DNA from: Halorussus sp. MSC15.2 | GTDB taxonomy: Archaea > Halobacteriota > Halobacteria > Halobacteriales > Haladaptataceae | Reading direction: 5' to 3' | Assembly: GCF_010747475.1 (NCBI RefSeq) | Contig: NZ_VSLZ01000001.1 | Location: 558,001 to 622,000, forward strand | Length of the DNA stretch: 64,000 nucleotides | Part shown: piece by piece, positions 30,430 through 33,687 of the stretch | Position numbering within the stretch: position 1 is the first letter of the stretch | Layout of the letters: every line of letters begins with the position of its first letter | Program-made: the position numbers and the translations under genes | Notes under the pieces: generated by a model | Told to the model about the DNA's origin: nothing | Seen by the model: only the letters and a program-made list of their open reading frames with translations | The model's database searches: none

Positions 30430-33687
<3,258 letters not shown>

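Follow-up and report, generated by a model that had tools for sequence, protein, structure and literature searches.

A two-hairpin palindromic element of haloarchaea found in a single reading frame of unrelated protein genes

Introduction

Among the closest described systems are the palindromic elements of Rickettsia (RPE; Ogata et al., 2000, 2002; account in PMC10969869), and the title of a cited paper calls protein-coding palindromes in Rickettsia 'a unique but recurrent feature'. RPEs and the element described here are both palindromic, dispersed and placed in frame in unrelated metabolic genes, with a conserved peptide that is apparently compatible with protein function. The present element differs in that it occurs in haloarchaea, measures about 45-55 nt instead of about 150 bp, has a different sequence, composition and fold, and is also found in a tRNA intron. 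The comparison is one of analogy only, with no homology shown.

Three other groups of short repeats are relevant. PATEs and small mobile repeats of Haloquadratum (PMC3119063) resemble the present element in being haloarchaeal, transposase-free and hairpin-containing, in showing no evident target duplication, in reaching down to 52 bp, and in showing strain-specific insertions and insertion into other elements. They are not described as in-frame peptide-coding inserts in the relevant sections of PMC3119063. PATEs are tied to IS605 termini, whereas the kinship of the present element to such ends is undetermined. GTAG and CGTC REPs with RAYT transposases (PMC3733652) are likewise short structured palindromes, some of which are intragenic and add residues, but they are mostly intergenic and carry a GTAG or CGTC tag, whereas the present family is mostly coding in our sample. 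MITEs share the non-autonomous, dispersed and short character; membership was rejected because the element has two separate hairpins, no terminal inverted repeat pair and no consistent duplication.

Palindromes that code for protein have counted as something particular to Rickettsia. The element described here behaves likewise in a second domain of life and in a large number of genomes, and close relatives of the carriers show clear empty sites. This makes several questions testable in culturable, genetically tractable organisms: what moves the element, why a single frame is used, and how an enzyme tolerates a sudden insert of 14-18 residues. The element also accounts for some of the small in-frame indels seen in haloarchaeal proteins. 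In the literature searched, which left out most subscription journals, we found neither the element peptide nor in-frame palindromes in archaea.

Results and discussion

Copies in the window and their empty sites

The window is a stretch of 64,000 nucleotides from Halorussus sp. MSC15.2. Its relevant features are the following.

30430..33786, minus strand: carB, carbamoyl-phosphate synthase large chain, host open reading frame of copy 1 (the true start is possibly inside this frame)
31024..31071, minus strand: net insertion in carB, 48 nt relative to empty orthologues, adding SEAQSASDASGETASE (ends may slide by up to 5 nt)
31027..31069, minus strand: element core of copy 1 in carB, complete, 43 nt
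31051..31069, minus strand: hairpin 1 of the carB copy, CGAGGCGC-AGA-GCGCCTCG, 8 bp
31027..31047, minus strand: hairpin 2 of the carB copy, GC-GA-GCGGT-GAA-ACCGC-GA-GC, with tandem G.A mismatch
31040..31066, minus strand: 27-mer of the earlier note, in carB
55297..58017, minus strand: ppc, phosphoenolpyruvate carboxylase, host open reading frame of copy 2
55691..55720, minus strand: copy 2 in ppc, truncated, comprising hairpin 1, linker and left arm of hairpin 2
55691..55717, minus strand: 27-mer of the earlier note, in ppc

An earlier note, made from the sequence alone, had reported that the 27 bases at 31040-31066 recur unchanged at 55691-55717, with orientation and frame the same at both sites. 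This held: in carB as in ppc the 27-mer is read as AQSASDASG, in one and the same frame, and shuffled sequences gave an expectation of 0 such matches. A third copy lies in dapB, with two mismatches to the 27-mer and the same frame, encoding AQSASDPSG. The idea that the 27-mer is the unit failed: the full element covers about 43-48 nt, part of which has been deleted from the ppc copy. The claim of two adjacent stem-loops held in part. Both hairpins are real, but the second had been drawn wrongly as TCG-GATG-CGA; the actual one, GCGAGCGGT-GAA-ACCGCGAGC, lies mostly beyond the 27-mer and is lost from ppc.

The absence of extra residues in homologues was also confirmed. At the ppc site, where the window has a net insert of 27 nt encoding the nine-residue peptide, the relative G010 carries a full 42-nt insert, and every other aligned relative, including G004, is empty. 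The window copy lacks 15 nt of hairpin 2 that G010 keeps, and this loss fits a deletion between GCGAGCGG repeats. The carB site is empty in 24 of 28 family genomes, the closest relative G004 among them; the other four carry a 48-nt net insert, and a fifth filled genome belongs to another family. In G003, a genome of the same genus, the part of carB that was compared is identical to that of Halorussus litoreus. Microhomology leaves the exact ends of the carB insert uncertain by up to 5 nt. Ends of the element are also ragged, since one and the same core comes with a net insert of 42 nt or of 48 nt. The carB insertion point is a short turn in other haloarchaeal and in bacterial CarB, and AlphaFold predicts the insert to be a low-confidence loop (pLDDT <50) between two strands.

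Over all sites compared, the length of the net insert was a multiple of three in 32 of 35 filled/empty pairs, and two of the three exceptions were tRNA intron copies. Genomes G000 and G004, which are 92.5% identical over 338 kb aligned, differ by element-family insertions in both directions. These comparisons show sites that are filled in one species and empty in relatives.

As a separate observation, the comparison of G000 C1:400-860 kb with G004 C1:1-400 kb yielded 42 indels of 24-90 nt. Many are hairpin-rich, and some of these fall outside the element family.

Structure of the element and covariation of its stems

The element has the layout AG-CGAGGCGC-NNN-GCGCCTCG-RAY-GCGAGCGGT-GAA-ACCGCGAGC, spanning about 43-48 nt. 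On the sense strand it folds as an 8-bp hairpin followed by a second hairpin with a tandem G.A mismatch as internal loop. The flanks of 27-mer matches gave a more general unit, (A)G CGAGGCGC NNN GCGCCTCG RAY GCGAGCGG N-loop CCGCGAGC. The stems are preserved across copies that differ in loop sequence, in the length of the linker (2-6) and in that of the second loop (5, 7, 11, 13 and others).

Covariation was examined in 127 distinct copies collected with a sequence-only profile, with pair counts over 107 of these. The loop-closing pair of hairpin 2 was formed in 103 copies of the 107, against 61 expected under independence, with 45 double changes; the outer pair was formed in 99 (68 expected; 20 double changes). 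In hairpin 1, an A-T to C-G change occurred in 11 copies of the 127-copy set. The stems therefore covary, although hairpin-templated correction is a possible alternative source of the compensatory changes. The G.A step was demanded by the parsing pattern in the pair count, and its conservation rests on the alignment instead. The tandem mismatch is strand-specific.

Reading frame and host genes

The results show that coding copies occupy essentially one frame. When frames were assigned from the contrast in GC between codon positions, 99 of the 103 coding copies shared one orientation and phase out of six possible frames, and three of the four deviating copies scored nearly equally in the standard frame. 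The peptide in this frame is SEA[R/Q]SASDASGETAS. Five of the six element frames are open, and the one used is the sole acidic one; the other open frames give basic (+4 to +6) or hydrophobic peptides. Selection after insertion accounts well for this bias.

The hosts are unrelated and mostly metabolic enzymes, including carB, ppc, dapB, SAICAR synthetase, CofC, biotin ligase and an argininosuccinate-lyase family protein, among others. Two criteria for protein-coding palindromic elements are met: dispersed palindromes lie in frame within unrelated open reading frames, and homologues exist without the insert at the same site. That the peptide is translated and retained in the mature protein is an inference from sequence.

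Copy number and distribution

A search with the 27-mer at up to 3 mismatches gave matches in 28 of 146 genomes, and the reversed-pattern control gave none. When 2 mismatches were allowed, a generic spaced pattern proved insufficiently specific and returned chiefly noise. With a covariance model, the window's own genome has 33 copies at E<=0.1, of which 23 lie below 0.001 (about 20 strong), and genomes of the same genus have at least 15-61 copies each at E<=0.1, these being lower bounds because 150 candidates were scored per genome. At E<=0.001, matches were present in 165 of 195 genomes of Halobacteriales and in none of 39 genomes outside the haloarchaea, several of them GC-rich. The E-values are rough, as calibration was shortened.

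Plasmid copies were found by blastn with the consensus in Halorussus, Haloarcula, Halorientalis, Halomontanus, Haloterrigena and Natrinema; those of named haloarchaea lie mostly under annotated protein genes. A phage collection contained no match to the element, so viral carriage is unsupported.

Insertion, nesting and spread

Hairpin 2 of an older CGCGGCGC copy contains a nested copy of a CGAGGGAC subfamily (L365, ~2949; G000:C1 ~802.9 kb), apparently without target duplication. In an automated test, junction overlap did not exceed that of shuffled cores, and no target duplication was consistent across copies; the lack of a clear target or duplication at the junctions is partly due to diverged flanks. 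GCGAG in carB and GACGG in L339 are duplication-like single cases that microhomology explains as well. What is shown is a structured-repeat family with coding copies in one frame and no fixed target duplication seen.

One might suppose that nothing moves, and that the copies are low-complexity linkers that arose convergently, or local mutations templated by hairpins in GC-rich DNA. In its favour, other hairpin-rich indels separate G000 and G004, and acidic linkers are frequent in haloarchaeal proteins. Against it stand the near-identical 43-nt cores both at unrelated sites and in unrelated species, the zero result of the reversed-pattern control, the lack of strong matches in other GC-rich genomes and the nested copy. 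We regard this reading as very unlikely.

The likely interpretation is a palindromic element of haloarchaea, dispersed and non-autonomous, which inserts at new places and persists inside genes. Insertion at new sites is inferred because many distinct sites are occupied. Mobility itself rests on comparisons: no transposition was observed and no mobilising gene identified. Persistence in genes is attributed to the one frame in which the element yields a stop-free, acidic and flexible short peptide that surface loops can accommodate, and out-of-frame or wrong-frame insertions, with their basic or hydrophobic peptides, would be purged by selection. New insertions would be made by a trans-acting enzyme, as yet unidentified, for which the two hairpins serve as recognition site, probably in single-stranded form. 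Single-strand recognition is proposed because the hairpins are conserved and no consistent target duplication is seen. It is nevertheless an inference, the weakest part of the proposal, and one we lean against.

Filled alleles seem to pass between species by homologous recombination as well. The carB tree requires at least four changes of state, and all filled carB copies have the rarer CA(A/G)AGC loop. This shared loop makes short-tract recombination of filled alleles likely at this site, rather than repeated insertion, so that the inserts shared by separate carB lineages probably reflect allele transfer.

Less likely, the element could derive from IS200/IS605 elements, much as a small PATE or REP would, and be moved in trans by a Y1 (HUH) transposase. 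In Haloquadratum, PATEs carry palindromes near their termini and lack a target duplication, and forms down to 52 bp seem to move even when the IS200-type transposases are disrupted (PMC3119063); the present element likewise has hairpins and no evident duplication. Against this, a Y1_Tnp match is missing from 8 of 18 copy-bearing Halorussus genomes, yet these hold 9-26 strong copies each, similar to the Y1-positive ones. A Y1 transposase as mobiliser was rejected, since it shows no association with copy number within the genus. GTAG is present in only 15 of 127 copies, and membership among the GTAG-REPs was rejected on this tag; the cognate Y1/RAYT gene expected of such repeats likewise has no match in those 8 genomes.

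The earlier note had inferred a miniature palindromic element that inserts into genes without breaking them. Under the preferred reading of a dispersed inserting element this holds, given copies genome-wide and in relatives, empty sites and lengths divisible by three. Of the checks it suggested, that on frame revealed a near-absolute bias and that on target duplication found none that is consistent. It would have been refuted by a lack of other copies, but many other sites carry them, or by conservation of the peptide at the same sites across distant haloarchaea; as written, the latter was not met either, the carB insert recurring at its site in a few distant haloarchaea and most relatives being empty. 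Its analogy with Rickettsia stands as a mode of working, while descent is unsupported and no sequence kinship was shown. A bolder reading takes the element as an order-wide archaeal counterpart of the Rickettsia palindromic elements, comprising more than one family, moving in a hairpin-dependent manner without a Y1 transposase, and adding peptides to core enzymes and sequence to tRNA introns. We see slightly more reason to doubt than to accept it.

Noncoding copies and tRNA genes

Among the 127 distinct copies, 24 are noncoding or ambiguous. Several lie 15-120 nt beyond tRNA genes, mostly in the orientation of the tRNA (L136, L142, L144, L105, L150, L174, L146). This proximity exceeds a rough expectation, but is a lead and not a test because the background of 1.3% was assumed.

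The tRNA-Arg(UCU) gene (L158:1432-1586; L188:1451-1605; L142:1611-1716, minus strand; L105:1415-1489) occurs in three states: without intron, with a 31-nt intron, and with an intron of about 80 nt that holds an antisense element. In G015 and G016, the antisense copy sits in the apical part of the intron; the intron of G011 is short and empty, and G008 has no intron there.

These copies bear on two further explanations. The hairpins could be a selected RNA or processing signal in the transcript, with the peptide incidental. The strand-specific tandem G.A mismatch, the covariation, and the noncoding copies within about 120 nt of a tRNA gene speak for this. Presence at the examined sites is patchy, however, the hosts are unrelated enzymes, the tRNA-intron copies are antisense, and no Rfam family matched within the window, all of which leave this explanation unlikely. 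Alternatively, the insert could behave like an mRNA intron or an intein and be taken out of the transcript or the protein, and two copies do sit in a tRNA intron. But an excised intron would need neither to keep frame nor to have a length that is a multiple of three, as the coding copies do; a bulge-helix-bulge motif has two 3-nt bulges, where this fold has a 2x2 G.A internal loop; and the peptide is far too short for an intein. This possibility is all but excluded.

Other hairpin inserts

A second, unrelated in-frame double-hairpin insert, VGASHAPASETESRPG, was seen at another carB site in seven haloarchaeal records (L199:841, L200:844, L201:844, L427-L430:1503). Its stem covaries (GCGAGAC..GTCTCGC to GTCAGAC..GTCTGAC), and one copy per genome was found at the stringency used. 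This insert suggests that in-frame hairpin inserts extend beyond one family. Another hairpin-like repeat, GCGCGGAGCGCCGCGACTGCGAACG, occurs several times in one genome (G002:C1 near 380684, 910103, 2078759 and 124831).
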